Below the pieces are notes generated by a model, which was not told the origin of the DNA, did no database searches, and saw only the letters and a program-made list of their open reading frames with translations. 64,000 bases of DNA from a bacterium (GTDB taxonomy: Bacteria > Elusimicrobiota > Elusimicrobia > UBA1565 > UBA9628). This document shows, piece by piece, positions 11,571-43,236 of this stretch. The DNA is taken from NCBI GenBank assembly GCA_021782205.1, contig JAJXVH010000007.1:1-64000 (forward strand), written 5' to 3'. A program made the translations under genes and the position numbers. Positions within the stretch are counted from its first letter, which is position 1; each line of letters begins with the position of its first letter.

Positions 11571-12491
11571 ATGGCCGAATTGACTGTCCATTTCGACTTG
11601 AGGTTCAGCGCGCGCATGTTGCGTTGGGCGATGGCCGGGGCCATGGTGCTGGTTGCGGCTCCGGAACTGGCGTCGGAGAGCGTGAGCCTGACCACCTATT
11701 ACCCGGCCCCCTCTGGCGTCTACACTCAATTGATCGCGACTAGCAACGCGTTTATGGCCCGTGACACGGGTTATCTGGACGTGGGCACGAACGTGACTCC
11801 GCCATCCCCGGCTGGGATTGGAACGGTTAAGGAGTATGTTGAGAACGGAGCGGTTTTGCTGGGATCTCCGAATGTCCTGGCCTTCGGCAACTATAGCGAG
11901 ATCGACGGAGACCAGGGAGGTTCCATCGAACTGGGAGGCAACAACAGCGTGGCCGGTGTCGGTACGCCCTACATCGATTTTCACTACGCGGGCCTTGGCG
12001 GTGACTTCAACACGCGCATCATAAACGACGCCAGCAATCAATTATCCATTTTTGGTCAGGGCGGGGCCGGTTCGACGGGATTCAGCGTGAACGGCCGCGT
12101 CGGCACGAATGGCTATTCCCCGACGACGGGTTACCCGTCGGGTTGGTCTGGCGGTATTCATACCTTCGACGTGTACAGCGAAGGATCCGTCGGAAACGGT
12201 GCGGGCGGGACCTTGCTCACTTACATGTCCCAAGGTGTCAGTTATGCCGCCAACAAGGTCCTTTCCGCTCAGGCGGTGGAGAGCAACGTTTCTTGTAGCG
12301 AGATCACGTTTTCGCCTAATTCTGTAGCGACTTGCGCGGGGTATATTACGACAGCTTCCGGATTCTACTCGATGTATATGAGTCTGCCGATTCCCCAGGG
12401 CCCCACGGGGCCCACGCAAACGACGACGACGAACGCCATTACCGCGTTATGTTGCTCGTGCCCCACCGCCGGCGGCAATTGCGACATCTAA
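11571..12491 (+). CDS. Secreted pilin-like protein with SLTTYYPAP motif
   Basis: A 306-residue exported protein. After a hydrophobic segment (WAMAGAMVLVAAPELAS) comes SESVSLTTYYPAPSGVYTQL, a motif I associate with a large family of pseudopilin-like surface proteins of Elusimicrobiota. The body is Gly/Ser/Asn/Thr-rich and predicted to be beta-structured (for example SIELGGNNSVAGVG). The C-terminus has paired cysteines (TALCCSCPTAGGNCDI). The gene has its own promoter and a strong ribosome binding site, and precedes the radical SAM cluster without being coupled to it. It may be a surface or fibre component; membership in the PAP family rests on the motif. Confidence 0.65.
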   Translation: MAELTVHFDLRFSARMLRWAMAGAMVLVAAPELASESVSLTTYYPAPSGVYTQLIATSNAFMARDTGYLDVGTNVTPPSPAGIGTVKEYVENGAVLLGSPNVLAFGNYSEIDGDQGGSIELGGNNSVAGVGTPYIDFHYAGLGGDFNTRIINDASNQLSIFGQGGAGSTGFSVNGRVGTNGYSPTTGYPSGWSGGIHTFDVYSEGSVGNGAGGTLLTYMSQGVSYAANKVLSAQAVESNVSCSEITFSPNSVATCAGYITTASGFYSMYMSLPIPQGPTGPTQTTTTNAITALCCSCPTAGGNCDI

Positions 12492-15928: not shown

Positions 15929-16905
15929 GCGCGCGCGCCGAAAGCGGCTGGACGCCGCCGCCGGGCCGGACGCAGAAGTTGGTGCTGTTCACCGGCTTCT
16001 CCTGCTCCAGCCACTGCCACTTCTGCATCGACCTCAACAAGCGCGACCTGCCCGACAAGTCCTCGCGGCAGATCGTCGAGGAGATGGTCCGCGCCAAGGC
16101 CGCGGGTGTGGAGTATCTGGAGATGATCGGCGGCGAGGCCACGATCCGCGGCGATTTCATCCCACTGGTGCGGACCGCCCGCAAGCTGGGCTTTAAAGAC
16201 GTCGTCGTGGTGACCAACGGCCGCATGTTCGCCGATCCCGCCTTCGCCCGGGCCACGGTCGAGGCCGGAGTCACCGACCTGGTCTTCTCCATCCACGGCC
16301 CCGACGCGAAGCTCCACGATGAGTTGACCTACGTGCCCGGCGCGTTCGACGAGTTGATCCAGGGCGTCGCCCACGTGCGCGCGGCGGGCCTTGCGCGCAT
16401 CTTCGGCAACTGCACCGTGGTCAAGCAGAACATGAAGCGCCTGCCGGAGATCGCGGCGCTGTTCTTGAAGCTGGCCATCCACCACGTCGAGTTCATTTTC
16501 GTGGACCCGACCTACGGCGGTGCCTATACGAACTTCAACGGATTGGTGCCGCGCATCGCGGACGCCGCGCCGTACATGCGCGCGGCGCTGGACGTGGGCC
16601 GCCGCGGCGGCACGCGCGACTTCGTGGTGCGCTACGTGCCGCTGTGCCACTTCACCGACTACCTGGACCAGGTCTCCGAGATCCGCGAGGTCGCGACCTT
16701 CCGCACCCGCCACTGGGCGCCGGACTTCATCAACGATGACGTCGGCGCGGGGCGCGTGGCCGCGGGCCGCGCGAAGACGGAGCGTTGCGCGGGCTGCGCG
16801 CTGTACGATCGCTGTGAAGGAATTTGGCGGGAGTATTTGAATCGCTATGACGATTCTGAACTCATCTGCGTTGGAAAAGCGGCGACGGTCGGTGAGGATC
16901 GCTGA
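15925..16905 (+). CDS. Radical SAM protein
   Basis: A 326-residue enzyme with C27-x3-C31-x2-C34 in GFSCSSHCHFCIDL, IGGEATIRGDF (GGEA in place of GGEP), VVTNGRMFADP and FSIHGPDAKLHDELTYVPGA. A C-terminal CAGCALYDRCEGIWREY provides a short cysteine set for an auxiliary cluster. The start overlaps the preceding radical SAM stop by 4 nt. The stop is followed 1 nt later by the methylase gene. It belongs to the same subfamily as the genes at 14651, 27185 and 30970. The substrate is unknown; context suggests a peptide. Confidence 0.87.
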   Translation: MSARAESGWTPPPGRTQKLVLFTGFSCSSHCHFCIDLNKRDLPDKSSRQIVEEMVRAKAAGVEYLEMIGGEATIRGDFIPLVRTARKLGFKDVVVVTNGRMFADPAFARATVEAGVTDLVFSIHGPDAKLHDELTYVPGAFDELIQGVAHVRAAGLARIFGNCTVVKQNMKRLPEIAALFLKLAIHHVEFIFVDPTYGGAYTNFNGLVPRIADAAPYMRAALDVGRRGGTRDFVVRYVPLCHFTDYLDQVSEIREVATFRTRHWAPDFINDDVGAGRVAAGRAKTERCAGCALYDRCEGIWREYLNRYDDSELICVGKAATVGEDR

Positions 16906-16906
16906 C

Positions 16907-17626
16907 ATGCGCCGCAAAGGCCGACTTGTACTCGCGTCCTATGGCCTCAACGATCGGCAGATGACTATTGAGACTTTGGTCGCCTTGCGCGAGTGCGATT
17001 TAATTTACAGCGAGTCTTTGGATGGAGATTCACGGGCGTCTCTTGAGCGGACGTGTCCTCCCATCATTTCTCTGCGGGATATTGCACCGGACGACGTCAC
17101 GGATTTGTTGATCTCGGAGGTGCGCAAAGGGAAGAATGTCGCGTACCTGACTTACGGAGATCCCGGGATTTTAAGTCCTTGCGAACGGTTCGTTTCGCGA
17201 TGTGAAAAGGAAAAAATAGAATATCGCCTGTATCCGGCGATTTCTTCCCTCAACGTGCTTCTCTGGCAGGAAAAACTAATCAAGTCCGGCGCGGCCGGCG
17301 TCTTGTTGAGTTGGGTGGGCGCGGAAATCCGCGCGTTCTGCATCGATATTCCGGCGCTTGTTTTTCTTTTTGGAGTGAAGCCGTTCAACAGCGCAAGCGT
17401 GGCGAGTCTGATCGTGAATATTCAGCGCGCTTATCCGTCGGATCATGTCGTGGAGGTGCTCTCGTACGCGGCATCGACCCCGGATAACCCGCGCCGAAGA
17501 AAATACGCCGTGAGCGAGCTGGCGCGAGCATGGCGGGAGGCGGATAATCAGAGCACGCTCTACCTTCCCGCGGTCGGTCGTCGGGTAGCGAAGGCCCGTA
17601 AGCGGGTACGAGGCGGACATGCCTGA
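16907..17626 (+). CDS. Tetrapyrrole-methylase-fold SAM-dependent methyltransferase
   Basis: A 239-residue protein of the TP-methylase fold. Visible are RLVLASYGLNDRQMTIETL, ECDLIYSESLDG, VRKGKNVAYLTYGDPGIL (the G-D/H-P-G loop that binds SAM, residues 83-87) and YRLYPAISSLNVLLW. There is no cobalamin or siroheme biosynthesis gene nearby. Besides tetrapyrrole enzymes, the fold includes the borosin methyltransferases that N-methylate peptide backbones, and a peptide-modifying context makes that reading attractive. I use the ATG at 16907, with GGTGAGG upstream; an alternative start at 16847 would overlap the radical SAM gene by 59 nt. A related but divergent gene lies at 59407. Confidence 0.7.
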   Translation: MRRKGRLVLASYGLNDRQMTIETLVALRECDLIYSESLDGDSRASLERTCPPIISLRDIAPDDVTDLLISEVRKGKNVAYLTYGDPGILSPCERFVSRCEKEKIEYRLYPAISSLNVLLWQEKLIKSGAAGVLLSWVGAEIRAFCIDIPALVFLFGVKPFNSASVASLIVNIQRAYPSDHVVEVLSYAASTPDNPRRRKYAVSELARAWREADNQSTLYLPAVGRRVAKARKRVRGGHA

Positions 17627-18578
17627 TTTTCCGATCTGGCCGCAATGCAATATCGCCTGCGTTTTCTGCTCCAACCCGACGGAGGGTTATCGCGAGACGA
17701 CAGGGATGTATTCTTACGAAGAACTCAAGAAAAAGGTCGAGGACTACAAGCGCGGCCTACAGACTTTCGTTAAATTCGACGAGGTCGGCGACTACTTCAA
17801 TCTAACCGGCGGCGAGCCGACGATCCATCCTGAATTTCTGAGGGTGCTCGCCTTGATCCGAACGGAATTCCCCGCGAACCTGATCCGCCTGCTGTCCAAC
17901 GGCCGGATGTTCGCCGAAGCGAATTTCGCGCGCCGCACCTGCGGCATCGTCGGCCTGCCGTTCGAGATCGCTGTGCCGATGTTCGGCGGCGACGCTCGCA
18001 GCCACGAGGCAATCTCGCGCACGCCGCTTTCTTTCCAGCAGACCGTTCAGGGTCTGCGGAATTTAGCCAAGCATCGTCTTCCCGGCCAGAAGGTTGAGAT
18101 CCGGATCATCATGACGAAAGTTCAGGCGCGCTTTTTAGGCGGCTTGCTCGAGCTCTTGCTGGCTGAATTCGCATGGGTCGATCGCGTGGTGTTCCTGTTC
18201 GAAGAGATCGAGGGCTTCGCCGAACACTACAAGGATCGGCTGGTTTTCACTCAGAGCGAATGCGCCTCCGTCATCGATCGACATTTCGATATGCTTTCGA
18301 GGTTTAGGGAGGTGCGGCTGTACCATTTTTCGCTTTGTACCACGCCGACGCGGCTGTGGCCCTACGTTTGGCGCACCCTGGCCGGATTTAAAGTGACCTG
18401 GCTGGACGGTTGCCGCACCCGTTGCCTTTACCGCGAACAGTGCGTCGGCGTGCATCGATCCTACGAACGTCACGCGGGCGCTCCCGACATCTCGCCGATT
18501 CTGGAGAGGCGTCCGGTCGAGCTTTCTGGCGATCCCTACCATCCGATCAGGGCGGTCAATGACCCGACTTCGCTCTAA
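17619..18578 (+). CDS. Radical SAM protein
   Basis: A 319-residue enzyme with C10-x3-C14-x2-C17 right at the N-terminus (WPQCNIACVFC), LTGGEPTIHPEFL and LLSNGRMFAEANF. C-terminal cysteines lie in LDGCRTRCLYREQCVGVH, consistent with an auxiliary cluster. The short N-terminus and overall size resemble the first gene of the cluster at 12548. It overlaps the methylase gene by 8 nt and the following HxsD-like gene by 20 nt. This ties the upstream radical SAM block to the His-Xaa-Ser block. Confidence 0.86.
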   Translation: MPDFPIWPQCNIACVFCSNPTEGYRETTGMYSYEELKKKVEDYKRGLQTFVKFDEVGDYFNLTGGEPTIHPEFLRVLALIRTEFPANLIRLLSNGRMFAEANFARRTCGIVGLPFEIAVPMFGGDARSHEAISRTPLSFQQTVQGLRNLAKHRLPGQKVEIRIIMTKVQARFLGGLLELLLAEFAWVDRVVFLFEEIEGFAEHYKDRLVFTQSECASVIDRHFDMLSRFREVRLYHFSLCTTPTRLWPYVWRTLAGFKVTWLDGCRTRCLYREQCVGVHRSYERHAGAPDISPILERRPVELSGDPYHPIRAVNDPTSL

Positions 18579-18993
18579 GTGTGTCCGCGTGCGTGCGCCG
18601 GAACACGTGGATCGCCGCGCATTCTTGGATGCGTGCGGCCGAATGACCGATGACGCCTGGGTGCGCCTGGATGAGCGAAACGGACGACTCACGGCGGTGC
18701 TGACGCCCCGCGTCGGGTCCGGTGTGGGATTGGTCGCGCGCTGGCGCCGTGAATACGAATCGGCCGCAACGCGCTGCCTGTTTTTGGCCGAGCAGCGCGT
18801 TTTGAACGCGGCGGTCATGTCTCGGGCGCTGGAATTGGCCCAGCATGTGGACGCGCGACGGCAAAGGCCGTTGCCGGAGTTGTCGCCGGAGCGTCGCGCC
18901 GAGATTTCGGCCTTGTTGGCCGAGGCGGACGCCGCTCCCAAGGATCCTCTCGGCATCACGAGGCCGTGGTCGGATCGTGGGAGCCGCGATTGA
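18559..18993 (+). CDS. HxsD-like small protein 1
   Basis: A 144-residue protein that I place, with caution, with the small HxsD-type partners of His-Xaa-Ser systems. The order is a short beta strand (KCVRVRAPEHV), a helix (RRAFLDACGRMTDDAWVRL), a strand with a turn (NGRLTAVLTPR), then long helices (YESAATRCLFLAEQRVLNA, SRALELA). The Pro/Ala-rich charged tail LSPERRAEISALLAEAD closely matches LTPDQRAEIEKLIAEVE in the better HxsD candidate at 20506. It is coupled to the gene at 18990 by a TTGA overlap. It is the most divergent of the four, so the family name is tentative. Confidence 0.5.
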   Translation: MTRLRSKCVRVRAPEHVDRRAFLDACGRMTDDAWVRLDERNGRLTAVLTPRVGSGVGLVARWRREYESAATRCLFLAEQRVLNAAVMSRALELAQHVDARRQRPLPELSPERRAEISALLAEADAAPKDPLGITRPWSDRGSRD

Positions 18994-19370
18994 GGCGCGC
19001 TTCGGCGTCTCTGCCGCGGTCGCTTTATCGGCGCGCCGACCTTGCCGCCGCGGCGGATTGGTTGGGGGGGCGCGTTCAGGCCAGGCTTCTTTCTCGTGGC
19101 CAGCGCTGGCACCTTTCCATTTTGACCGACGCCGGATTGGATGCTCGCGCGGCCCTGGCGGAGATGCTCAATGAGGCGCTGTTGCGGGGCTTACGCGAAA
19201 TGCGGCTTAAAGAGGTCGGCCCGCTGGCCGCCGCCGTGGCCGGACGCATGCTCGATCATGGGTTTCCCTCGGACCCGGCGGACCCGTTGGAGGAAATGGA
19301 ACCGCAGGTCCGCGCCGACCGCAGGCGAGAAACTCAAGCGCTTATAGAGCGGGCTCGGGGCATACCGTGA
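18990..19370 (+). CDS. HxsD-like small protein 2
   Basis: A 126-residue protein. I start it at the TTG at 18990, which overlaps the previous stop (TTGA) and has GGGAG 7 nt upstream; the GTG at 18966 is the alternative. The layout is SLYRRADLAAAADWLGGRVQ (compare LYSEDAVRIAAHVFESQAEI in the gene at 22610), a beta hairpin RWHLSILTDAG, then ALAEMLNEALLRGLREM, matching the EFLNELLNQEQRM segment of the 22610 protein. It lies directly upstream of, and overlaps by 4 nt, the motif-less HxsB relative. The same D-then-B order is seen for the two intact HxsB genes, which supports pairing. Confidence 0.55.
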   Translation: MRRASASLPRSLYRRADLAAAADWLGGRVQARLLSRGQRWHLSILTDAGLDARAALAEMLNEALLRGLREMRLKEVGPLAAAVAGRMLDHGFPSDPADPLEEMEPQVRADRRRETQALIERARGIP

Positions 19371-20458
19371 CCTCGCGCCCCCCGCCTGGCGGAGGCGAGG
19401 CCGTCCCGGAATTACCGGATGTCGACGCGTTGGCGCGCGCGCTTGTCGCCACCGGAGTGCTCAACTGGACGGGACCTCTAACGCATGTTATTGTCGCATC
19501 CCGGGGAGCCGTCGGCATGTCGCCGGAAATGGCCCGGGCCGCCGTCGATTTCGCCTTTTCCACGCCGCGACCGACGATTCGTTTGGAGATCGTCGGTGCG
19601 GAGGGAGCCGGGCGTCAAGCGGGGTGGCTGGCGGTGGAATACGCGCGCCGAAAAGCGGAATGGAGAGGGCGGGGGTTGGCCTTGTCCTGGCGGACAGCGC
19701 GTCGACCCGCCGCGGAACAGTCGGCTTGGTTGGCCGCAAACCGTGTGGAAGTCGTGGCGGACGTGAGGGCCGTGGGCGGGCCGGAGCGTTCGCAGTTGTT
19801 TCCAGCCGCGCGCGCTCGCGTGCGGCTGGCGCGTGGGGCCGCGTGCCCCGAAAGTTGGATCGACGCCCTCGCGTCGTTGGGCGTTTCCCAGGTCTCGTGG
19901 GAGCCTGATGTCGTTGCTACGGATTGGCCAGCCCCTGGTTCGGCGCGCCGCGCGGCGAAGTTCGCGGCAAGGGCATTGGCGCGGCTCATTGAGACGCATG
20001 AACGTTCGGGCCTGCGCGACGAACGCGCCGTCGCGTTGCTTTCCTTTCGGCCTTGGGAAATTCCGGGAACGGATCTTCTGTCGACTCTCGCCTATTCGCC
20101 GGAGGGGGGAATCTACTCGTCGGAAGCGGGTTATCGACGGGCTGAAGAGGAGAACAATTCGAGGCGTTTGGGCTTTTTCGAAGTGACGCGGTTCTCTCAA
20201 TTCGCTTCAATGCCGACGGTTCAAGCCATCCTTGCTGCCGCGTGGCGAGCCGGCCATCCAGAGTGTTCCGATTGCCCTTACAGGGAACAGTGTTCGCTGC
20301 CATGGTCTCGGAAATCCTGCGGCAGAGGCGGTCCGGCTCACGCCTGGTGTGCGTTGCACACCGCCTTGATGCGTGGCATTTTTTCATATCCCGATCGCGA
20401 AAAATGTATAAGTGCATTGAATAAATGGGGCGTTGACATTTCTCGGATCGCCTGGTAA
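19367..20458 (+). CDS. HxsB-like protein lacking the radical SAM cysteine motif
   Basis: A 363-residue relative of the HxsB maturases downstream. Homology is visible at two ends. Residues 38-64 (LTHVIVASRG, then MSPEMARAAVDFAF) align with VHTIVVTRRC and MTPEIARAAVDLAF of the gene at 23077. Residues 240-330 (GGIYSSEAG; C300-x2-C303-x5-C309, C318, C328) align with the SPASM-type region GGVYTSEDG and MCSQCAYAPYC. The stretch that should hold CxxxCxxC is absent, as is the GGEP motif (LEIVGAEGAG). It therefore cannot bind the SAM-cleaving cluster, yet it keeps the C-terminal cysteines. It is intact and coupled to its HxsD-like partner, so it is probably a non-catalytic subunit rather than a pseudogene. 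Confidence 0.72.
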   Translation: MTSRPPPGGGEAVPELPDVDALARALVATGVLNWTGPLTHVIVASRGAVGMSPEMARAAVDFAFSTPRPTIRLEIVGAEGAGRQAGWLAVEYARRKAEWRGRGLALSWRTARRPAAEQSAWLAANRVEVVADVRAVGGPERSQLFPAARARVRLARGAACPESWIDALASLGVSQVSWEPDVVATDWPAPGSARRAAKFAARALARLIETHERSGLRDERAVALLSFRPWEIPGTDLLSTLAYSPEGGIYSSEAGYRRAEEENNSRRLGFFEVTRFSQFASMPTVQAILAAAWRAGHPECSDCPYREQCSLPWSRKSCGRGGPAHAWCALHTALMRGIFSYPDREKCISALNKWGVDISRIAW

Positions 20459-20505: not shown

Positions 20506-21081
20506 ATGAGAAAATCAATAAAAAAATCACGTAAAATATTGAAGAAAAATCCGCGAGCGCGCAAAATCCGACCCGGCGGCGCGCGGGCGTCGGATGTGTG
20601 CGTGGTTCTGGACGCGCGTCGGGACGGTGTCGATGAGATATATTCGGCCGCCTATCTCATGATCGATAGAGCCTATGTGCTCCTCGAAGGTGACCCCAAA
20701 AAATCTATGCGCGTGACGTTACGTCCCAGAGATGTTCGCACGAAGGCCTCGCTGACGGCGGTGCGAAGCGATTTTATGTCGGAATTGGCCGCTCAACGGG
20801 TGCGCTGGTCCATAACGCGCAATAATCAGTCGATCCGCGAATACATCGCGGAAAACGCGCTGTCGCTGGCCGCGGAGTTTGGCGCGCGGTCAGAGGTCGC
20901 TGAACCGTCTGCGGCCGCAGAGCAACTCACCCCGGACCAGCGCGCCGAGATCGAAAAGCTGATCGCCGAAGTGGAAACCGAAATCAAGGCGATGAATGAG
21001 CAGAAGCCGGCGACCGATCCCAAGGCCGCAGTCGCTCCTTGGGAGGCAGGCCGTTTGCCCGGCGGAGAAAACCCCGCGTGA
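20506..21081 (+). CDS. HxsD-like protein 3
   Basis: A 191-residue protein. After a Lys/Arg-rich N-terminus (KKSRKILKKNPRARK) comes the HxsD-type core: VCVVLDARRDGVDEIYSAAY, DRAYVLLEGDPKKSMRVTLR, DFMSELAAQRVRWSITRNN and SIREYIAENALSLA. This is the usual order of a strand, helix, hairpin and long helices ending in an I-R-x-x-I helix. The C-terminus is a charged helical tail. HxsD proteins are the small fourth component of His-Xaa-Ser systems and may present the substrate. It has its own strong promoter and is coupled (GTGA) to the HxsB gene that follows. Confidence 0.68.
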   Translation: MRKSIKKSRKILKKNPRARKIRPGGARASDVCVVLDARRDGVDEIYSAAYLMIDRAYVLLEGDPKKSMRVTLRPRDVRTKASLTAVRSDFMSELAAQRVRWSITRNNQSIREYIAENALSLAAEFGARSEVAEPSAAAEQLTPDQRAEIEKLIAEVETEIKAMNEQKPATDPKAAVAPWEAGRLPGGENPA

Positions 21082-22613
21082 GCCGCTTGAGCGCGTTGCC
21101 TGCGAGCCTCCGACCCGAAACGAGCGGCCTCGGGCCCTTAAATTTTAGGAATTTCGGCGATTGGGGCCTGCTGACCAATGATTGGGGCCGCTGGCTGATG
21201 CTCGACAAGAATGATTTTTCGCGAGTCCTGTCGGGCGACGTGAAAGCCGGTGAGCCCCTGCATCAGCAACTCGCGCAGCGGGGCTTCCTGCGTGAGGCCA
21301 TGAACTTTCCGGAATTGGCCGCGTCTTATCAAAAGTTGACGTCATTCCGTCTGATTTCGGGCCCCAGCCTGCATATGATCGTCGTGACCTTGCGCTGCAA
21401 CCAAAAGTGCCTCTACTGCCATTCCAGCGTGGTCGATCCCTCCCGGACCGACACGGACATGGACTTGGAGACGGCCAAGCGCACGGTTGACTTTATTTTC
21501 GCGACGCCGAATCCCGCCCTCTGCATCGAATTCCAGGGTGGAGAGCCGCTGTTGAATTGGCCCGTTGTGAAGTTCGTCGTCCAATACGCGAAAGCGAAGG
21601 CCAAGGAGCAGAACCGACGCCTCCTTCTGGCGCTCGTCAATAATTTCACATTGATGACCGACGACAAGCTTCAATTCTTGATTGATCACGGCGTCTCCAT
21701 CTGCACATCCCTTGACGGCCCGGCCGATCTGCACAACAAAAACCGCCCGTTTCTGGGCGGAGGGGAGGCTCAGCCGAAAGTGGTCGGTTGGGTTCGGCGC
21801 ATCATGGACCTGGCCAGCACCGACGATTTGCGTAAGCCGTATCTGCCGAGCGCTCTGATGACGACGACGCGCTTCTCCTTGGGACGCGGCAAAGAGATCG
21901 TCGACCTGTACCGGGACCTCGGCATGGAGCAGATTTTTCTTCGTCCGCTGTCTCCGATCGGCTATGCCAAGCGCGTCTGGCATGAAATCGGTTACGAGCC
22001 CGAAGACTTTCTGCGCTTCTATGCGGAGACCCTCGATTACATTCTCGAGCTCAATCGCAAGAACCCGGACGAAATCATGGAGCGCTTTACGCTGGTGTTG
22101 TTGACGAAGATCCTCAAAGGTGAGGATCCCGGCTTCATGGATCTGCGCTGGCCCTCCGGCGCCGTGCTGGGCGCCCTCGCCTATAATTACGACGGGCGCA
22201 TCTTCGTCAGCGACGAGGGCCGGATGGTCGATCATCAGGGCGATCCGATCTTTCAAGTCGGCGACGTCGCGCGTGATTCTTGGCAAGACGTGCTCGACCA
22301 CCCGACCGCGCGGGCGTGCGCGGCCGCTTCCACTCTGGAGGCCCAGCCGATGTGCGCCCAGTGCGCCTACAAGCCATGGTGCGGGGTGGAGCCCGTCTTC
22401 CATTACGAAATGCAGAGGTCGATTGCCGGACGTATGCCGGACAGCCCGTGGTGCCGCGTTCACATGGGGGAATTCGACATCGTCATGCAGCGGCTGCGCG
22501 ATCCGAGCAGCCGCGCCGTTTTCGACCGATGGCTCGAGCGGGACCTTTGCCACTGGCAAGAAAACGACCCGGTCCTGGTGCCCGGCCAGCCCATTCCGGA
22601 GGCTTTGCGATGA
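21078..22613 (+). CDS. hxsB: His-Xaa-Ser system radical SAM maturase, HxsB type (copy 1)
   Basis: A 511-residue enzyme starting at GTG 21078. The N-terminal recognition-like part reads GLLTNDWGRWLMLDKNDF, then VLSGD and QLAQRGFL. The radical SAM motif is C107-x3-C111-x2-C114 in LRCNQKCLYCHSS, followed by DMDLETAKRTVDFIF, IEFQGGEPLLNWPVVKF and CTSLDGPADLHNKNR. The SPASM-type C-terminus has PMCAQCAYKPWCGVEPVF and PDSPWCRVHMG. This arrangement, and the phrase IEFQGGEPLLNWP, are what I know from HxsB maturases. It follows an HxsD-like gene and precedes another HxsD/HxsB pair. Its presumed substrate is the His-Gly-Ser repeat protein encoded at 24559. Confidence 0.82.
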   Translation: MSRLSALPASLRPETSGLGPLNFRNFGDWGLLTNDWGRWLMLDKNDFSRVLSGDVKAGEPLHQQLAQRGFLREAMNFPELAASYQKLTSFRLISGPSLHMIVVTLRCNQKCLYCHSSVVDPSRTDTDMDLETAKRTVDFIFATPNPALCIEFQGGEPLLNWPVVKFVVQYAKAKAKEQNRRLLLALVNNFTLMTDDKLQFLIDHGVSICTSLDGPADLHNKNRPFLGGGEAQPKVVGWVRRIMDLASTDDLRKPYLPSALMTTTRFSLGRGKEIVDLYRDLGMEQIFLRPLSPIGYAKRVWHEIGYEPEDFLRFYAETLDYILELNRKNPDEIMERFTLVLLTKILKGEDPGFMDLRWPSGAVLGALAYNYDGRIFVSDEGRMVDHQGDPIFQVGDVARDSWQDVLDHPTARACAAASTLEAQPMCAQCAYKPWCGVEPVFHYEMQRSIAGRMPDSPWCRVHMGEFDIVMQRLRDPSSRAVFDRWLERDLCHWQENDPVLVPGQPIPEALR

Positions 22614-23080
22614 TGAAAATTAAAGTGGATATCAAAGAGCGCCGCGCCATCGTGCGCGCGCCGCGACGTCTCTACTCGGAGGATGCCGTTCGGATCGCCG
22701 CGCATGTCTTTGAATCGCAGGCGGAGATTTATCACGACCAGACCGGAAGCGAGCATGTCCTGACCCTTGTCGCTCGGCGCAAGGATTGGGAGGACCTGCG
22801 TTTGGAAGCGCTCGGCGGCGAGTTTCTTAACGAGTTGCTGAATCAGGAACAACGGATGCGCGTGGCGCGTTTCAACCGGCGCATCTCGGAGCGCATCGTC
22901 GCTCAGGCCCTCCTGGCGGCGCGCGGCGGAGAAAATCCCGCGCCCAGGCAAGAGGACTCTCCGGAACTGCGGGCCGAGGCCGCCCGCCTCATGGCGGCCG
23001 CCGCCGATGAGATCCGCCGCACCATGCCCGCGCGCATTGCGCCGCAAGGACCGCCCATGCGCGCGCCGGAGCCCGCGTGA
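22610..23080 (+). CDS. HxsD-like protein 4
   Basis: A 156-residue protein and the best HxsD match of the four. It starts MMKIKVDIKERRAIV, then LYSEDAVRIAAHVFESQAEI, VLTLVARRKDWED, GGEFLNELLNQEQRMRVARF and NRRISERIVAQALLAA, and ends in an Ala/Pro-rich tail. HxsD proteins have this strand-helix-hairpin-helix core with F-x-N-E-L-L-x-Q and R-x-x-V residues. It begins in a 4-nt overlap with the preceding HxsB and ends in a GTGA overlap with the next one. The tail residue pattern (GGENPAP) recurs as LPGGENPA in the 20506 protein, hinting at duplication of the D/B unit. Confidence 0.72.
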   Translation: MMKIKVDIKERRAIVRAPRRLYSEDAVRIAAHVFESQAEIYHDQTGSEHVLTLVARRKDWEDLRLEALGGEFLNELLNQEQRMRVARFNRRISERIVAQALLAARGGENPAPRQEDSPELRAEAARLMAAAADEIRRTMPARIAPQGPPMRAPEPA

Positions 23081-24534
23081 CGCTCGCCGGTTCCCGCCTG
23101 ACCTCCATCGCGTCGCACCTGGAGCGGGAGCCGCGCCGCGTCGCGGGGCATGCCGCGCGGCGCCTTGGGACGCGGGTTCTGGTCACTTCCGATTCCGGGC
23201 GCTGGATCACGCTTTCGCACGGGGAATATGATCGCTATCTGTCCGGCGGCGTGAGCGACGACGAACCCTTGGGCGCCACGCTGGCGGAGCGCGGCTTGCT
23301 GCGCGATCGTCTGGATTTCGCGGCGCTTGGAGAAGCGTTTTCATCCCGGCATCTTCTTCGATGGCCCGGTCCCGGAGTACACACGATCGTGGTCACCCGC
23401 CGGTGCAACTTTCGGTGCGTCTATTGCCACGCGAGCGTCGTTCCCGAAGATGATCGTTCGACGGACATGACTCCGGAAATCGCGAGGGCCGCGGTCGATC
23501 TGGCCTTTCAATCGTCCAATCCGGAAATGACGATCGAATTCCAGGGCGGCGAGCCCTTGCTGAATTGGCCGGTGGTCAAATTCATCATCGATTATGCCCG
23601 CCTCAAGAACGTCGTTGCGGGAAAACGTCTGCATTTTGGTTTGATCTCGAACTTCAGCTTGCTCGACGACGCGAAAATCGACTGGCTTGTCGAGCGCGGA
23701 GTCAGCTTCTGTACATCCCTGGACGGCCCCGCGGATATTCACGACGCGAATCGGGTGTATCTGGGCGGCAATGGCCATGCCTCGGTCGTCGCCGGCCTCA
23801 AGGCGATCCAGGCTCGACGCGCCGCGGGCGCGAAAATTGATTCGCCCAACGCGATCTGCACGGTCACACGGCTTGCGCTGACGCGGCAAAAAGAGATCAT
23901 CGATCAAGCGGTGGAATTGGGCCTTGAGCGGATTCAATTGGGCCCGCTCGACCCGGTCGGTTTTGCCCGCCGATCTTGGGGCCGCGTGGGATACTCGTCT
24001 TCGGAATTCGTCGATTTCTACGCGCGGGCGCTGGACTATCTGATCGCGCTCAATCAGCGCGGCGTGAAAGCGTATGAAAAAACCGCGCTCGTGCTTTTGA
24101 TCCGCATCCTGCGCGGTGAGCATTGGCGCTTTCCAAACGCCGACGGCGCCGCGCGCTTGGCCTATGATTGGGACGGCGGCGTGTACACGTCCGAGGACGG
24201 CCGATTGTTGGCCGCGGACGGTGACGAATTCTTCCGCGTCGGAGAAGCCGGGCGCTCGAATTTGGCGGAGATCCTCGACCATCCGCTGGTAAAGACCTCG
24301 CAGTACGCGGCCCTGCCCTGGGCGCAGCCGATGTGCTCGCAGTGCGCTTACGCGCCTTACTGCACGGTGCAGCCGGTCTTCAACTATGAGACGCAAGGCA
24401 GCCCGTGGGGCCGCATGCCGGTCAACGGCTGGTGTGAAAAAATGATGGGAATTTTCGACGTGCTGTTCGCGCGGCTGGAGGACCCGGCGGCGCGGACCGT
24501 GCTCGAGTCGTGGCTCGAGTATAAAGACCGATAG
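23077..24534 (+). CDS. hxsB: His-Xaa-Ser system radical SAM maturase, HxsB type (copy 2)
   Basis: A 485-residue paralogue of the gene at 21078. The N-terminal part has LVTSDSGRWITLSHGEYDRY, the motif C110-x3-C114-x2-C117 in RRCNFRCVYCHAS, DMTPEIARAAVDLAF, IEFQGGEPLLNWPVVKF and CTSLDGPADIHDANR. The SPASM region holds PMCSQCAYAPYCTVQPVF and VNGWCEKMMG. GTG start, overlapping the HxsD stop by 4 nt. It ends 24 nt before the ATG of the HxsA gene. Two intact copies in one locus imply either two substrate proteins, two segments of one substrate, or two distinct reactions. Confidence 0.84.
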   Translation: MTLAGSRLTSIASHLEREPRRVAGHAARRLGTRVLVTSDSGRWITLSHGEYDRYLSGGVSDDEPLGATLAERGLLRDRLDFAALGEAFSSRHLLRWPGPGVHTIVVTRRCNFRCVYCHASVVPEDDRSTDMTPEIARAAVDLAFQSSNPEMTIEFQGGEPLLNWPVVKFIIDYARLKNVVAGKRLHFGLISNFSLLDDAKIDWLVERGVSFCTSLDGPADIHDANRVYLGGNGHASVVAGLKAIQARRAAGAKIDSPNAICTVTRLALTRQKEIIDQAVELGLERIQLGPLDPVGFARRSWGRVGYSSSEFVDFYARALDYLIALNQRGVKAYEKTALVLLIRILRGEHWRFPNADGAARLAYDWDGGVYTSEDGRLLAADGDEFFRVGEAGRSNLAEILDHPLVKTSQYAALPWAQPMCSQCAYAPYCTVQPVFNYETQGSPWGRMPVNGWCEKMMGIFDVLFARLEDPAARTVLESWLEYKDR

Positions 24535-24558
24535 CGCGTGCGCGCGGAGGACGAGAGA

Positions 24559-24924
24559 ATGGCCAAGAAGAACGCGAAGAAGGGCGGAAAGACGAAGGAT
24601 TCCAGCAAGCTAAAAAAAGGCAAGTTGCTGTCCCGGGTCAAGAAGGACGCCTCGGTGTTCCTGAGCTCGGAGGAGGGCAAGGTCACCAAGGAAAATGTCG
24701 TCAAGACGGCTGCGGCTCTCGGCATCATCGGCGCGGCCCTGCTGAAGGCCTCGCCCGCGCCCGCGGCCCACGGAAACTATCTGCACAATTCCGGCGGAGT
24801 CGGGTCGCATACCAGCCATGGCTCACACGGATCTCACGGCTCCCATGGTTCCCACGGTTCCCACGGTTCCCACGGTTCTCACGGCTCTCATTGCCGCGGT
24901 GGGTGGTGCAACCCGAGATGCTGA
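24559..24924 (+). CDS. hxsA: His-Xaa-Ser repeat protein, HxsA type (probable modified substrate)
   Basis: A 121-residue protein with a Lys-rich N-terminus, a leader-like helix (DASVFLSSEEGKVTKENVV), a hydrophobic AAALGIIGAALL segment ending in SPAPAAHGNY, and then a His-Gly-Ser repeat core. Residues 82-111 read GSHTSH followed by eight GSH units. The tail has three cysteines (C112, C117, C121). This is the layout of HxsA proteins, whose repeats are the proposed targets of HxsB/HxsC. I chose ATG 24559 because GGAGG lies 8 nt upstream; an upstream GTG at 24538 gives a poorer start. The adjacent D/B genes on one side and radical SAM genes on the other make it the most likely substrate of the locus. 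Confidence 0.85.
   Translation: MAKKNAKKGGKTKDSSKLKKGKLLSRVKKDASVFLSSEEGKVTKENVVKTAAALGIIGAALLKASPAPAAHGNYLHNSGGVGSHTSHGSHGSHGSHGSHGSHGSHGSHGSHCRGGWCNPRC
24802..24891 (+). repeat. 9-nt tandem repeat encoding Gly-Ser-His
   Basis: About ten imperfect copies of a 9-nt unit (consensus GGT TCC CAC) in frame within the HxsA gene. Identical units in the middle (several GGTTCCCAC in a row) and wobble variants at the edges show that the array is young and could change length by slippage. Confidence 0.9.
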
Positions 24925-24961: not shown

Positions 24962-26065
24962 GTGGCTCTGGACCACCTAGCCGTCTATCTGAGCAATAGC
25001 TGCAACTTGGCCTGCAGCTATTGCTATGTCGCGGTCAATCAAGGTCCGGCCGCACGCCTGGATTTTGATGCCGTGCGGCGTGCGGTCGACGAGTTCGTGG
25101 CGCGGGTCTCGCCCGATAAGCGGAAGGTCACTTTTATCGGCGGCGAGCCGCTTCTTGATTGGCCGTTGTTCGTCGAGTCCGCCCGCTACGCGCGCAGGGC
25201 GATGGGTCCAAGCGGGGTGCTGCAGACGTTCACGAACGGGACCTTGCTGACTCCTTCGAAGATTTCTTTTTTTGAAGAGGTCGGCGTTCATTGCACCGTA
25301 AGCGTGGACGGCCGCAAAGAAGACAACGACCTTCATCGTGTTTTCTATAAAACCGTCGGCCGATCCGTGTATGACGACGTGATGGAGCGTCTGCGGCCCT
25401 TGGACAAATCCCGTTTGGGCGTCAGCCTGGTCTTCACGGCGCGCACCGTGGACCGTCTTCTGTCCAACGTGGACGCATTCCATCGCATGGGATTCGGGCG
25501 GGTGACGTTCAATCCGGAGCTTTATGAGGCATGGCCGGAAGAAAAAATCGAGGCCATGCGGCTTGCGCTAAAAGGCCTTTCGCGCTGGTACCGTGCGTTG
25601 CTCGACGCGGGCGTTCGTCCGCCTCAGTTGCAGATACTCTATGCGGTCTTGGAGGCCGACGAACAGAATGCGGTCGACCCTCTTTGGTGGCGCGACTGCC
25701 ATAATATGACCCTGGGGCCGGACGGTCGTTACTATTCGTGCGACAAAGCGCTTTCTCATCCGATCGGAACCGCGGACGGCTTGGTCTCCGGCTCCGCGCA
25801 GACCGGCATGGACTGGGCGGGCCGCCAAGAGCGGCTCGACGACCCGGCGGCGCTCATCGAGTCCAGCGGAGAGGGTGCCGGCCATGTGTTTTGCCCGATC
25901 GGTGTGGTCGAACACGCCCGCCTTGCGGGACGCGACCCGGCACCGGCGTTGAAGAATTTTAGGCGCGTGGCCGACGCTTTTTCCGTCGGGTTGCATGACC
26001 TCGTCTCGCGATGCTCCGGCCATCCCGTCTACGAGGAAATGTATGGACGCGCCCGCGCCTGCTGA
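24962..26065 (+). CDS. Radical SAM maturase next to HxsA (HxsC position)
   Basis: A 367-residue enzyme, GTG start. C14-x3-C18-x2-C21 lies at the N-terminus (SNSCNLACSYCY), with IGGEPLLDWPLF, QTFTNGTLLTPSK and VSVDGRKEDNDLHR. Auxiliary-cluster cysteines occur in WRDCHNMTLGPDGRYYSCDK and HVFCPIGVVEHA. It follows hxsA by 37 nt, where HxsC would be expected, but I cannot confirm that it is HxsC rather than another peptide maturase. A paralogue at 31932 has the same length and layout but has lost every C-terminal cysteine. It overlaps the next radical SAM gene by 23 nt. Confidence 0.8.
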   Translation: MALDHLAVYLSNSCNLACSYCYVAVNQGPAARLDFDAVRRAVDEFVARVSPDKRKVTFIGGEPLLDWPLFVESARYARRAMGPSGVLQTFTNGTLLTPSKISFFEEVGVHCTVSVDGRKEDNDLHRVFYKTVGRSVYDDVMERLRPLDKSRLGVSLVFTARTVDRLLSNVDAFHRMGFGRVTFNPELYEAWPEEKIEAMRLALKGLSRWYRALLDAGVRPPQLQILYAVLEADEQNAVDPLWWRDCHNMTLGPDGRYYSCDKALSHPIGTADGLVSGSAQTGMDWAGRQERLDDPAALIESSGEGAGHVFCPIGVVEHARLAGRDPAPALKNFRRVADAFSVGLHDLVSRCSGHPVYEEMYGRARAC

Positions 26066-27200
26066 AATCCACGCCGCCTATGGTCCCGCGGAACTGGCGC
26101 GTCTGCGTGCTTTGGGGTTGGCGACGAATAAGGAAATTCGCCGATTTAAAGTCGCCGTAAATACCGCCTGTCCGTTGCGCTGCGATTACTGCTTCATCGA
26201 CAAGGATTCCGGTGAAACGATCTCTTGGGAGCACGTGGCCGGACTTGTGCGCTTCCTGCTGTCTTCACCCGGCCACGTGAAGAAACTTCTGTTGTACGGT
26301 GGAGAGCCGTTTCTGAATTTCGCGCTGGTGCGCGAGATCGCACTCTACGCCCGCGCCGAGGCGCTCAAGGCCGGAAAGGATTTGGATTTGTCGATCTGCA
26401 CCAGCGCGGCTCTCCCGTTGCGCACCGAATGGCTGGAATTCCTGCGCGACCAGCGGTTCTTCTTATCAGTCAGCATGGACGGAGACGCCGCGACCCATGA
26501 CGCTCATAGACACGACAAGGGCGGCGTCGGTTCTCATGCGCGCATGATTCCGAATCTGCCGCCGATTTTCGAATCGATCGGTCGCCGCCGCGCGATGGCG
26601 ATTCAATGCGTGCATCCCGGCAATGTCGAGAAAATGCTCGACAACTTCAAAACCCTCGCTGGTTATGGATTCGAGAATATTGAAATTGAAGTCATTCATG
26701 GGTTCGGCTGGAAAGACAAGAAGCATCTTTTTCGCCCAATGATGCAGAGAGTGTTGGACTGGGTGTGGGAGGAGGCCCGGGCGGGGCGGCGACGCTTTGT
26801 CGTTTGTTCGCTGGTGCCGCTGATGCTCAAGGATGGCGTCGTTCGCGAGGATTGGTGCCCGTTCCACTCATCGATGGAAACGTACCCTGACGGCAGCTTT
26901 TCATTCTATCCGTTCGCGTTCGTGGATTGGGATGGACGCAGACGCTCCAAAGTGGGGGACGCCTCCGGTGGAATTCCGCCGCGTTTCCAGGATTGCTCAT
27001 TCGACCTGGGATCGGATAAATGTCGGAACTGCACCACCGATTACTATAAGAATCCGTCCGTGAACGAAGGCAACGATCCCTATCGCTGGCGCACCGAGAT
27101 GGCGCGTGCGTTCATGGACAAGGTCGCAATGGTCGCGCGAACCGATCCGACGATGAAGGAATATCTGAAGGAGGCGCTGATTCGGTGCCGCATCAGCTGA
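26043..27200 (+). CDS. Radical SAM protein, anSME/SPASM-like
   Basis: A 385-residue enzyme with C43-x3-C47-x2-C50 in NTACPLRCDYCFIDKDSG, LLYGGEPFLNFALV and FLSVSMDGDAATHDAHR. Later cysteines lie in VREDWCPFHSSME (after DGSFSFYPF), and in FQDCSFDLGSDKCRNCTTDYY, enough for auxiliary clusters of the SPASM kind. I start it at ATG 26043, preceded by GAGGAA; a longer reading to 25995 would extend further into the previous gene. It overlaps the TPR-radical SAM fusion by 16 nt. Related SPASM proteins modify peptides or sulfatases. No sulfatase is visible here, so a peptide substrate is more likely. Confidence 0.83.
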   Translation: MDAPAPAEIHAAYGPAELARLRALGLATNKEIRRFKVAVNTACPLRCDYCFIDKDSGETISWEHVAGLVRFLLSSPGHVKKLLLYGGEPFLNFALVREIALYARAEALKAGKDLDLSICTSAALPLRTEWLEFLRDQRFFLSVSMDGDAATHDAHRHDKGGVGSHARMIPNLPPIFESIGRRRAMAIQCVHPGNVEKMLDNFKTLAGYGFENIEIEVIHGFGWKDKKHLFRPMMQRVLDWVWEEARAGRRRFVVCSLVPLMLKDGVVREDWCPFHSSMETYPDGSFSFYPFAFVDWDGRRRSKVGDASGGIPPRFQDCSFDLGSDKCRNCTTDYYKNPSVNEGNDPYRWRTEMARAFMDKVAMVARTDPTMKEYLKEALIRCRIS

Positions 27201-30200
27201 CGTTGCTGGGATCCTCGCCCAATGCCGTGCTGCGCCGCGGCGCGGTGAAGGCGAACCTGATCCACCACCTGGCGCACACGGGTGGAACGAACGTCCTTCG
27301 ACGGATCGGGCGCGCTTACGCGCCGCCGCGGGATTGGATTCCTGCGTCCGGACGTCCGGTTTCTGCTTCGACGGCGAGAGCGTTTGACGCCGCCTTCGGC
27401 GTTGCGACCCCGCGTCTCTCCCGCCGCCATCCCGTCCTCGCCACGCTGGCGCGCGCCGCGGGCCGCGATGAGTTCTGGGCCCATTTCGGCCTTGCCTTCC
27501 ACTTCTTGCGCGTCTGGGAGGGAGATGAGCCGTTTCGCGACGCTCTGGCGCACGCCGACGCGGCGCTGCGCTTCGAGCCGGACTGGGCGTGGGGGTATCT
27601 CCTACGCGGGGAAATAAAGCGCTCGCTGATTGATTACGCGGGCGCGGCCCTCGACCTGCACCGGGCCGCCGCCCTCGACCCGGGTTGGTCCTGGGCCGAA
27701 GGATTTCTTTCGCGGGCGCTTTTCCAGCGCGGCACCGACGCTTCGGGCCTGGAGCCTTTGGACCGAGCGGTGACCCTGGGCCCGCGCGAAGGTTTTTTAC
27801 GCTGCTGGCGCGCGGAAGCGTATCGCCGTCTGGGCCGGACGTCGGAGGCTCAGCGTGAATTTAGCGAAGGGTTGAGCCTGGATCCGCTCTATGACCAGGG
27901 CTATGGCTGGCGCGCGCGCCTGCTGGACGCGCAGGGCCGCCATGACGAGGCTGCCGCGGATTTGCGTCGCGGCATCGACTTGTGTCCGCATTTTGAAAAG
28001 GCTCATCGGCAACTTGTGCGCTCCCTGCGCGGGGCCGGTAAGACGGGCGCGGCCCTGCGCGAGCTTGACCGCGCCGCGACGCTCAATCACCGCAATAACT
28101 GGCTGGGTGTCTGGCGTGTCGAGGGTCATCCGGATGACGCGACGGCCCGCCAAGCGCTGGCTGAGATCGATGCGCATCTGGCGCGCCGTCCCCGCGATGC
28201 GCGCGCGCTAGCCTGGAAGGGCGAAACGCTGGCCCAGATCGGACGGCTGACCGAGGCAATCGACATCCTCGACGCCGCGCTGAATCTCAAGGCGGACGAC
28301 GCCTGGGCGTTGTGTTGGCGAGGCGAGGCCCTGTTGGGATTGGGCCGCGTCGCGGAAGCGCGGGCGGACCTGGACCGCGCGATTGTCCGCGACGCCTCCT
28401 ACGGACGCGCGTGGGCCTGGCGAGGTCGCGTGCGGCTCCTCTGCGGCGATTTCGAGGGGGCTGAAAATGACCTGACCAGGGCGCTGTCGGTCAAGAGAGT
28501 CGAGTACTCCTGGATATGCGCCTGGCGCGGAGAAGCAAGGCTCGAACTCGGCCGACTCGAGGACGCGACCCGCGACTTTGACGCCGTCCTCGCGCTTGAC
28601 CCAGGCCAAGCGCGCTTCCGACGGCTGCGGGCACGCGCGGCGCGCGGCGAGGCGGCGGGCGCGCAATCCGATCTTGACGCGGCGCGTGTGTCCTCCGATT
28701 TCGCTTTCGAGTCTTCGACGCCCGTACTCTGGGGTCATCTGCCGTGGCGGACGATTCTGGCGGTCGAGGAGCGGCGTCTTGCGGGCGACGCCCGGGGCGG
28801 TCTGCGCCGTCTAAATCCGGTCGTGCGCCGCCATGGCGGAGAGGCCCCCTGGCTCTACATTCTGCGCTACCGTCTGCGGCGCGCGCTGGGCGCGGCCAAC
28901 GCGCACCGTGACGTCGATCTCGCTTTCCGCCGTGATCCGAACTCCGGCTGGATCGCAGGCTTGGTGGCGGCTCCGCCATCCGCGGCGCGGCAAGCTCTTC
29001 TCTTGCGCGATTCCTGGAGGGGATTCGCGGACGACGCCTCTTGCGCGCCCCTCCACGCCTATCACGGGCATGATCTTTTCCGGCGAGGCGACGCGACGGG
29101 AGGACTGAAAGCGCTTGAGCGCGCGGTCGGTCTGGAACCGTCGGCGTGGATCCTGGCGTGGCTCGGTGAGGCTCTTCGTTCCGCAGGGCGCCCTGAGGAA
29201 GCGCGCGCGGCGTTGGATCGTGCCCTCGCTCTCGATGCGCGCTATGACAACGCCTGGGCTTGGCGCGCGACGTTGAAGCTTGCCGAAGCGGACGCCGCGG
29301 GCGCATTGACGGATCTGCGGCGTGCCATTGCGCTGCGGCCTACCGCTCGAGCGCTCCATGAGTTGGCCCGGACTTTGCGCGCCCTAGGTCGAACCGAGGA
29401 TTCGCTGGACGCGCTGGCTAGCGCGGCGCGACTCAATGCCGAGCTTGGCTGGTCTGGGCTTCGCGACGAGGCCGCCCCGCAGGCTTTAGAGGAAATCCGG
29501 GCGCTACGTGTTCGCCGCGACGGGCCGCGACTGCGGGAATGGGAGGCCGACGCTCTTCTTCGCCTCGGTCAGCCGGGGCAGGCGCTGGCGATTCTAAAGG
29601 GCGCGCGCTCCGCGTGGGCGCGAACGCGCCGGGCCGAGGCCCTTTTACAGCTGGAAGGTCCATCGTCCCGCGCTCTTGAAGAGGCGCTGGCGGCATCTCG
29701 CGGAGACCCGCGTTGGGCCAAGAGCCGAGCCGTGGCGGCGCAGGCCACTTTGCGCGCGGGCGACACGGCTGCGGCCGCCGTCCATGCCGCGGCGGCCGTC
29801 CGGCTCAACCCCTTTTCCGCGCGGCTGCGCGTTCTGCGCGCCGAGGCGCTGGCCGCGTCCGGCCGACGCCGCGCGGCGAAACGCGAGTTGGAGCGCGCGC
29901 GCGCTTTGGCTCCGGGCTACGCGTTGGCGCGGCAACGACTGGAAGAGCTTCAATTCGGACGACCCATCGACGCGCCGTCGCTTATTCCTGCTTCCGATCC
30001 GATCGGCGGCGAGCCGAAGTCATTGGAATTTTTTGTCAATTATTCCTGCAACGCCAAATGCCCGTTCTGTTTTAATCCCCCGGATGCCTCCGCCGAGCTT
30101 GAGCGGGGCCTGCCTTTGCGGGAATTAGCCGCGCGCCTCCTGTCCGGCTGGCGCGAAGGTTATCGTGCCGTCAAATTTATCGGCGGTGAAGTCACCGTGC

Positions 30201-40621: not shown

Positions 40622-41379
40622 GCCTCACGGATCGAAGCAAGCGCGAGTTTATACGGCGGGGTTATCTGACCCTGCGCGGAATCGTCCCGCGGATGAAAAT
40701 CGGTCCCGCGCTACGCGTTATTAATCAGAAGCTCGGCTCCGGTTCGAGGAAAGGCGCCAGCCCCGAGCATGTGCCGTTTTTCTCCGATCTGTTCAACTCC
40801 CCGGAACTGATGTCTCTATTGATGGAGACGAAGCTTTGGCCTGTCGTCGAGAGTCTCCTTGGTCCTGGATGCGCCCAGCGTCCGCAAGCCGAAGTCACGC
40901 TGGGCTTCCCGAACATGGACGCCTCCGCTCATTTTAACGCCAAGGAGCTTCACATCGACGGGCTTCCGGACAAGGGCCGCCGTGAGACCTATACGCTGAA
41001 CGTCGGCGTATTTCTCAGCGACGTTCCCGGTCCGAACATGGGTAATTTCAAGGCATGCCCCGGATCGCACCTGTGGGTTGCCGAGCATGCGCGTCGTTTC
41101 GGGCCTTATGGCATTAACCCGGCGTTGAGGGACCTGCGCGGCACCGCCGGAGAAACCGATGAGCTCATCGCGCGTGCCGGCGATGCGGTGGTTTGCCACT
41201 ACAATCTTGTTCATGCGCGCCAGTGGAACGCCTCGCCGCACATTCGCTATGCCGTATTTTTTCGCGTCTATGCGAAGGGGCACCTCACACGATGGCAATA
41301 CGTGATGCGAGAACCCTGGGTCGAGTGGGCGGGGCTGGCCCATCTTCGGCCGAAGAACGCTGGGAGCACTGCGGACTAG
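40618..41379 (+). CDS. PhyH-family Fe(II)/2-oxoglutarate oxygenase 2
   Basis: A 253-residue paralogue of the preceding oxygenase, coupled by ATGA. H112-x-D114 in ELHIDGLPDKG and the distal H199 in NLVHARQWNASPHIRYAVFF form the iron site; LNVGVFLSDVPGPNMGNFKACPGSH is the core. It shares the N-terminal pattern KREFIRRGYLTLRGIV with the PhyH domain start of its neighbour (KRALMSKGYVRLPAV). Its stop shares the four bases CTAG with the stop of the convergent halogenase-like gene, so it closes the plus-strand cluster with no room for a terminator. Confidence 0.82.
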   Translation: MSLTDRSKREFIRRGYLTLRGIVPRMKIGPALRVINQKLGSGSRKGASPEHVPFFSDLFNSPELMSLLMETKLWPVVESLLGPGCAQRPQAEVTLGFPNMDASAHFNAKELHIDGLPDKGRRETYTLNVGVFLSDVPGPNMGNFKACPGSHLWVAEHARRFGPYGINPALRDLRGTAGETDELIARAGDAVVCHYNLVHARQWNASPHIRYAVFFRVYAKGHLTRWQYVMREPWVEWAGLAHLRPKNAGSTAD

Positions 41380-43127: not shown

Positions 43128-43236
43128 TTCCAGCCCCCCGCGTTCCATTCCCGGTCTCGACAGGGTCATTATAGCACCCGGGGCGTGCTTGGCTGGAACG
43201 CGCTGTGGCCGACTGCGCCGCGTCAGGGGGGAGTGC

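Follow-up and report, generated by a model that had tools for sequence, protein, structure and literature searches.

A conserved HxsB paralogue without radical SAM cysteines keeps its auxiliary-cluster site in Elusimicrobiota

The gene pB, found in the window (the whole stretch of 64,000 nucleotides that was analysed), encodes a paralogue of the radical SAM/SPASM maturase HxsB that lacks the radical SAM cysteine motif CxxxCxxC and the GGEP motif. Judged from its sequence, it retains a complete four-cysteine site of the type that binds one auxiliary [4Fe-4S] cluster in SPASM enzymes. The loss of the radical SAM site is old, common to all orthologues and kept by selection, and comparable losses are found in about four other HxsB lineages, where most of the dead copies (those without CxxxCxxC) adjoin an HxsD gene. 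This conservation beside active relatives, together with the several independent dead copies, suggests that pB does real work as a partner of other proteins, a function that we infer from sequence.

pB sits in a run of same-strand genes that includes two active-type HxsB copies and a precursor gene, as listed below.

17619 to 18578, plus strand: HxsC-like radical SAM protein (TIGR03977, 145.6 bits, under the cut-off)
18559 to 18993, plus strand: U1, a second HxsD-like protein (profile match to the HxsD alignment at 99.6%, E = 4e-24)
18966 to 19370, plus strand: U2, HxsD-like, directly upstream of pB (profile match to the HxsD alignment at 98.3%, E = 2.2e-14)
19367 to 20458, plus strand: pB (pseudo-HxsB), HxsB paralogue without CxxxCxxC or GGEP, 363 aa
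20506 to 21081, plus strand: D1, HxsD (TIGR03976, E = 2.2e-12, 47.2 bits against a cut-off of 50)
21078 to 22613, plus strand: B1, active-type HxsB (TIGR03978, 469 bits; CxxxCxxC and GGEP present), its start set at the GTG that overlaps D1
22613 to 23080, plus strand: D2, HxsD (TIGR03976, E = 2.5e-11, 43.8 bits against a cut-off of 50)
23077 to 24534, plus strand: B2, active-type HxsB (TIGR03978, 395 bits; CxxxCxxC and GGEP present)
24538 to 24924, plus strand: HxsA4-type precursor with His-Gly-Ser repeats (NF038313, 71.7 bits, above the cut-off of 55)
24962 to 26065, plus strand: PapB-like radical SAM protein (NF047865, 114.5 bits, under the cut-off), kept in related clusters

The HxsA4-type precursor is the probable substrate of the cluster. 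NCBIfam gave no match for U1 or U2 of the window, and among the U1 orthologues compared with TIGR03976 two match (1.5e-4 and 3.3e-4) and one does not. The profiles of U1 and U2 orthologues do match the HxsD profile in hhalign, which brings the cluster to four HxsD-like genes beside three that are HxsB-like. By open reading frame analysis pB is an intact frame of 363 codons with a GTG start and no internal stop; its start shares 4 nt with the stop of U2, and 47 nt separate its own stop from the next gene. The description of the gene as intact and coupled, made in the earlier note, is therefore accurate.

Several other genes in the window are worth recording. The cluster is headed by a secreted protein, pilin-like by eye and without a Pfam match (11571 to 12491), whose conservation in related clusters is limited to about the first 75 to 100 residues. 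A tetrapyrrole-methylase-like gene with a PF00590 match (16847 to 17626) lies between a radical SAM gene and the HxsC gene and is not present in the related clusters compared; a second such gene, judged by eye, is at 59407 to 60249. Adjoining the cluster, in relatives as well, is a protein of 1262 aa with a long repeat region (TPR-like by eye) and a C-terminal radical SAM part (27185 to 30973). Further along are flavoprotein genes at 41376 to 43349 and 52100 to 54631, which by eye resemble halogenases or related monooxygenases, with many TPR-like proteins nearby.

Homology of pB to HxsB, as read earlier from the letters alone, can be placed on firmer ground with profiles. TIGR03978 (HxsB) matches the window copy alone at E = 1.2e-10, with the best stretch at residues 233 to 342, and is the sole NCBIfam model to do so at E up to 0.1; the score of 40.7 bits is below the curated cut-off of 370 bits, so pB is not an HxsB as curated. 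Pfam, PF04055 included, gave no match for pB at E up to 0.1, and none for the full-length orthologue of genome G017. When ten pB orthologues were compared as a profile with 16 active HxsB copies, hhalign returned a probability of 100, E = 4.9e-73 and 415 aligned columns, and common descent along the full length is far beyond chance. pB shares with HxsB this full-length homology, the four auxiliary cysteines and the HxsA/HxsC/HxsD setting, with HxsA4, HxsC-like and HxsD genes adjoining it. HxsB has CxxxCxxC, GGEP and a full barrel, whereas pB lacks both motifs, as had been claimed for the window copy, and its barrel is shortened. Two sites within the gene define the difference and the likeness, with positions computed from the start at 19367 (residue n begins at 19367 + 3(n-1)).

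19478 to 19519, plus strand: shortened connection, window residues 38 to 51, where active HxsB carries CxxxCxxC
20264 to 20350, plus strand: codons of C300, C303, C309 and C328, the four-cysteine auxiliary-cluster (Aux II type) site, kept in orthologues

At the shortened connection, ten residues lead from the histidine of a GPxxH motif to a conserved methionine in the window copy, against 28 in most active copies. In the SPASM part, C300, C303 and C309 form a CxxCx5C motif and C328 is the fourth cysteine; this site corresponds to Aux II in the anSME/CteB scheme given in PMC12093266. The earlier note had listed C318 with these four as remaining cysteines. All five are present, but the alignment shows C318 to be unique to the window copy and not a conserved site. 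The Aux I cysteines are missing from pB and also from the active B1 and B2 of the window. What had been overlooked is that the window copy is also missing an N-terminal domain, some 60 to 70 residues long, which active HxsB and most orthologues carry; this domain is gone in the G020 copy too, and in both genomes the overlap with U2 occupies its place.

Orthologues were searched for among 58 relatives, in 56 genomes of the order and in 340 genomes of the phylum, and pB was found in 14 Elusimicrobiota genomes from two families: nine in the genus of the window (counting G000), a single genome in each of two further genera of that family (G020 and G029) and three in one genus of the second family (G036, G038 and G044). 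In G005, G009 and G013 a contig end leaves the C-terminal part of the gene, and the G016 copy is split over two contigs; the G013 copy falls under the cut of the phylum search and is counted from the searches of the 58 relatives and the order. A scan of genome contigs with the alignment gave 13 pB-related loci, 10 of them titled Elusimicrobia or Elusimicrobiota, and the single-sequence scan with pB gave nothing. All 14 clusters retain pB. The order U1-U2-pB-D1-B1-D2-B2-A4 is kept within the family of the window as far as contigs reach, the cluster of the second family differs after D1, and the G011 cluster has several broken frames. CxxxCxxC and GGEP are present in none of the 13 copies listed, of which three are C-terminal fragments unable to show the site and one, from G011, is a frame called short; thus the search for orthologues that the earlier note had proposed yields no copy in which CxxxCxxC is retained, and every copy that reaches the site is without it. 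CxxCx5C is found in all 13. Among the 12 orthologues other than the window copy, 11 space the four cysteines at 0, 3, 9, 33; G013 has 0, 3, 9, 29 and the window copy 0, 3, 9, 28.

Sequence comparison can also reveal how the gene has been constrained. Across 11 pairs of pB orthologues from the two families, dN/dS (NG86) is 0.22 to 0.55 (0.30 for the window against G010), compared with 0.10 to 0.36 for B1 pairs and 0.21 to 0.38 for B2 pairs; judged by dN, the rate for pB is about two to three times that of B1. pB is under purifying selection, though faster-evolving. Ten complete copies were aligned. Of the positions that never vary across 16 active HxsB rows, pB holds the same residue without exception at 4 of 55 in the barrel, compared with 10 of 24 in the SPASM part, and all four cysteines are among these 10. 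At twelve positions, including W99, R109, R149 and W164, pB has a residue that is at least 90% fixed and that occurs in none of the 16 active rows. pB is a protein with its own constraints and not a relaxed enzyme.

Structure prediction, another check proposed in advance, gave confident models. AlphaFold2 was run with an alignment of 29 rows that included active HxsB rows, which leans the model towards the HxsB fold. The G017 orthologue reached a pLDDT of 89.9 and a pTM of 0.88, and the window copy a pLDDT of 88.2 and a pTM of 0.87. In a Foldseek search of the PDB with the G017 model, the best matches were CteB (7.8e-14), anSME, TigE and ChlB. VIA-align 2 placed the G017 model on CteB with Z 24.6 and 3.8 A over 346 residues, starting from CteB residue 1, and the window model with Z 22.9 and 3.2 A over 294 residues, starting from about CteB residue 80 to 90; anSME aligned with pB models at Z of about 20 to 21. 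The models thus predict that pB keeps a partial radical SAM barrel fold. The best fold matches, CteB (5WHY/5WGG) and anSME (4K36-4K39), are active enzymes, unlike pB. The N-terminus of CteB is an RRE that binds the leader, according to PMC12406949; the G017 orthologue has a domain aligned with it, and this part is missing from the copies of the window and G020. Searches of PDB sequences with pB and HxsD profiles returned nothing useful.

The loss is not confined to pB. Four more HxsB copies lack CxxxCxxC, and all four have CxxCx5C and a fourth cysteine at +33.

L044, 9440 to 10321, minus strand: dead HxsB of G036, 293 aa, N-terminal domain and SPASM part with almost no barrel, adjoining HxsD
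L109, 6040 to 7500: dead HxsB of G019, Aux I cysteines also kept
L114, 6316 to 7806: dead HxsB of G035, full length, cysteines replaced
L173, 1108 to 2646: dead HxsB of G054, from another family of the class, Aux I cysteines also kept

The G036 remnant is an extreme form of the same loss. An HxsD-like gene lies beside the dead copy in G019, G035 and G036; none was found on the 6 kb contig of G054, where an active HxsB follows directly. Within the order, 11 of 67 full HxsB copies lack CxxxCxxC (8 pB and 3 others), a count that omits B1, B2 and pB of the window itself and sets aside 14 partial open reading frames. Outside the order the figure is 1 of 51 (the G054 copy), in a sample of 40 stretches that was drawn, with a preference for low scorers, from the matches in 58 genomes; 2 partial frames were set aside. 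A low score was dropped as a sign of a dead copy, because the other low scorers in the outside sample are of active type. In most genomes with HxsB no pseudo-HxsB was found, so the system generally works without one.

In phylogenetic trees the dead copies fall in five places. The G054 copy pairs with its active neighbour as sister (100/98), and an active clade encloses the G035 copy (99/96). Support for the exact sister of the G019 copy is weak (81/40), and the G036 and G035 copies are on long branches. A single origin of all dead HxsB was rejected by an AU test with p = 7.3e-5 for nine rows and p = 3.3e-4 for the seven loop-shortened rows, values to be read with the knowledge that the test presumes groups named before the tree is seen and that these were chosen after. 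CxxxCxxC has been lost about five times independently, and the auxiliary site has been kept each time. The manner of loss varies: in at least three lineages the connection was cut to the same length, and elsewhere the motif was mutated or most of the barrel lost. Counted by eye, ten residues are found in pB of the window, G010, G016, G017, G020, G029, G036, G038 and G044, with six in G007 and G011 not measurable, and the dead copies of G019 and G054 have arrived at ten independently. Active copies have 28 residues from the GPxxH histidine to the methionine in 69 of 88 measurable cases (15 of 103 unmeasured), and in some active copies of another family the connection is shorter; the active sister of the G054 copy also has 28. 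A plausible reason for the recurring length is that the first strand and the first helix have no natural link shorter than ten residues. The tandem pair of G054 (L173, 1108 to 4153, plus strand), tree sisters that differ by an 18-residue cysteine connection, can be viewed as a natural before-and-after pair. As a separate observation, active HxsB copies divide into those that have the Aux I cysteines (about 48-50 of 103) and those that do not (47-51). The idea that HxsB generally has one auxiliary site was rejected, given the full seven-cysteine pattern in 48-50 of 103 active copies; it holds for part of the family, to which B1 and B2 of the window belong.

Proteins of this kind have been met before. 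TIGR04150 (pseudo_rSAM_GG), TIGR04347 (pseudo-SAM/SPASM) and TIGR04304 (GeoRSP_SPASM) are named families of pseudo-rSAM or SPASM type, and their members partner an active radical SAM protein. pB fits this kind, with no radical SAM cluster ligands, its SPASM-type cysteines kept and an active maturase adjacent, whereas its partners and precursor differ from theirs. None of the three models matches pB at E up to 0.1; in the whole genome TIGR04150 has no match at E up to 0.001, and TIGR04304 has none. TIGR04150 is found beside TIGR04148 (PMC4573289). An experimental case comes from thuricin CD, where TrnC and TrnD are active only together, in a complex (PMC12093266). Mutation of the radical SAM cysteines of TrnD leaves modification by TrnC complete, every double mutant of its auxiliary cysteines (CxxCx5C plus C412) is inactive, and deletion of its RRE weakens TrnC binding and abolishes activity. 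Like pB, TrnD is a second maturase paralogue with a single auxiliary site made of CxxCx5C and a later cysteine; unlike pB, it retains CxxxCxxC and cleaves SAM, and it belongs to a different family and acts on a different peptide.

Without radical SAM ligands or GGEP, pB should not be able to cleave SAM. By analogy, it looks like TrnD stripped of its dispensable part, and pB is probably a non-catalytic partner subunit of a hetero-oligomeric maturase that contains an active HxsB. In such an assembly, pB and the HxsD-like U1 and U2 would join active B1 or B2, and the complex would act on the HxsA4 precursor, which pB may help to hold or present. One maturase would do the SAM chemistry and the other would give binding and an auxiliary cluster, as in TrnC/TrnD. 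The analogy is weakest for the window gene, since TrnD needs its RRE to bind TrnC, a domain that is missing from the copies of the window and G020; here the contacts made by the RRE in TrnD would have to come from HxsD-like proteins. Counting against the partner reading are the constraint on pB, which is looser than a core subunit would lead one to expect, and the fact that four cysteines could bind zinc. The earlier proposal of a non-catalytic pseudo-maturase with an auxiliary cluster thus stands with respect to stable inheritance, the missing radical SAM ligands, the complete auxiliary site, purifying selection and an intact predicted fold. Its suggestion of a new kind of subunit does not, given the named families and TrnD: a dead radical SAM/SPASM paralogue beside an active maturase is a kind known by family name. 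What appears new is the repeated, parallel origin of such copies within HxsB, of which the open-licence literature searched gave no account, nor of the biochemistry of any HxsB.

Other explanations for pB have to be weighed. That pB is a natural counterpart of the cluster-deleted maturase used in laboratory work, with an auxiliary cluster that gives electrons to B1, B2 or the PapB-like protein or takes them from the clusters there, is unlikely, although several points speak for it. Across the five dead lineages only the cluster ligands are strictly conserved, and a PapB-like protein is encoded in the window cluster. In PMC10470005, a PapB variant without its radical SAM cysteines still reduces QueE, another radical SAM enzyme, less well than wild type and apparently by direct contact. 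However, the variants in that work lack stability and carry only part of their iron, and loss of the radical SAM cluster together with AC2 cut transfer by 50-70%; the cluster of pB may also serve stability alone, and sequence does not separate a relay from a structural role. Electron relay and the partner subunit proposed above are not exclusive. A decoy or regulator, binding the precursor or HxsD without chemistry and so limiting the modifications made by B1 and B2, would suit a precursor with repeated targets and the domain matching the CteB N-terminus that most orthologues keep. Yet that domain is lost in the window and G020 copies, and a decoy needs no iron-sulfur site, the very part that is most conserved, which makes this role quite improbable.

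pB could also be a decaying gene, en route to loss and kept by chance. The window copy has no N-terminal domain, a shortened cysteine loop and the longest or nearly longest branch among orthologues (1.17-1.41). Against this, the frames are open, the dN/dS values across two families and the retention of pB in every cluster disfavour a pseudogene, the auxiliary cysteines are intact and the predicted fold is confident, so that decay has very little probability. An artefact of assembly or sequencing might be suspected in a fragmented metagenome-assembled genome of 177 contigs, and a sequencing deletion had been named beforehand as a danger to the claim. It is ruled out for practical purposes: the identical shortened connection occurs in orthologues from many independent assemblies.

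A broader reading, which we regard as tentative and on balance doubtful, is that HxsB repeatedly yields obligate dead subunits that keep the auxiliary cluster alone, this cluster being the selected function, for example as a relay to the active maturase in an HxsD-HxsB assembly. The roles of auxiliary clusters in SPASM enzymes are largely enigmatic, and removing clusters by mutation destabilises the enzymes and makes them hard to study (PMC10470005). Natural proteins in which the radical SAM cluster has gone and the auxiliary site has survived, on several occasions, uncouple the two in a way that is stable in evolution. The dead HxsB copies suggest that HxsB maturases may act as assemblies in which catalytic and non-catalytic paralogues each have an HxsD partner, an idea that can be tested.
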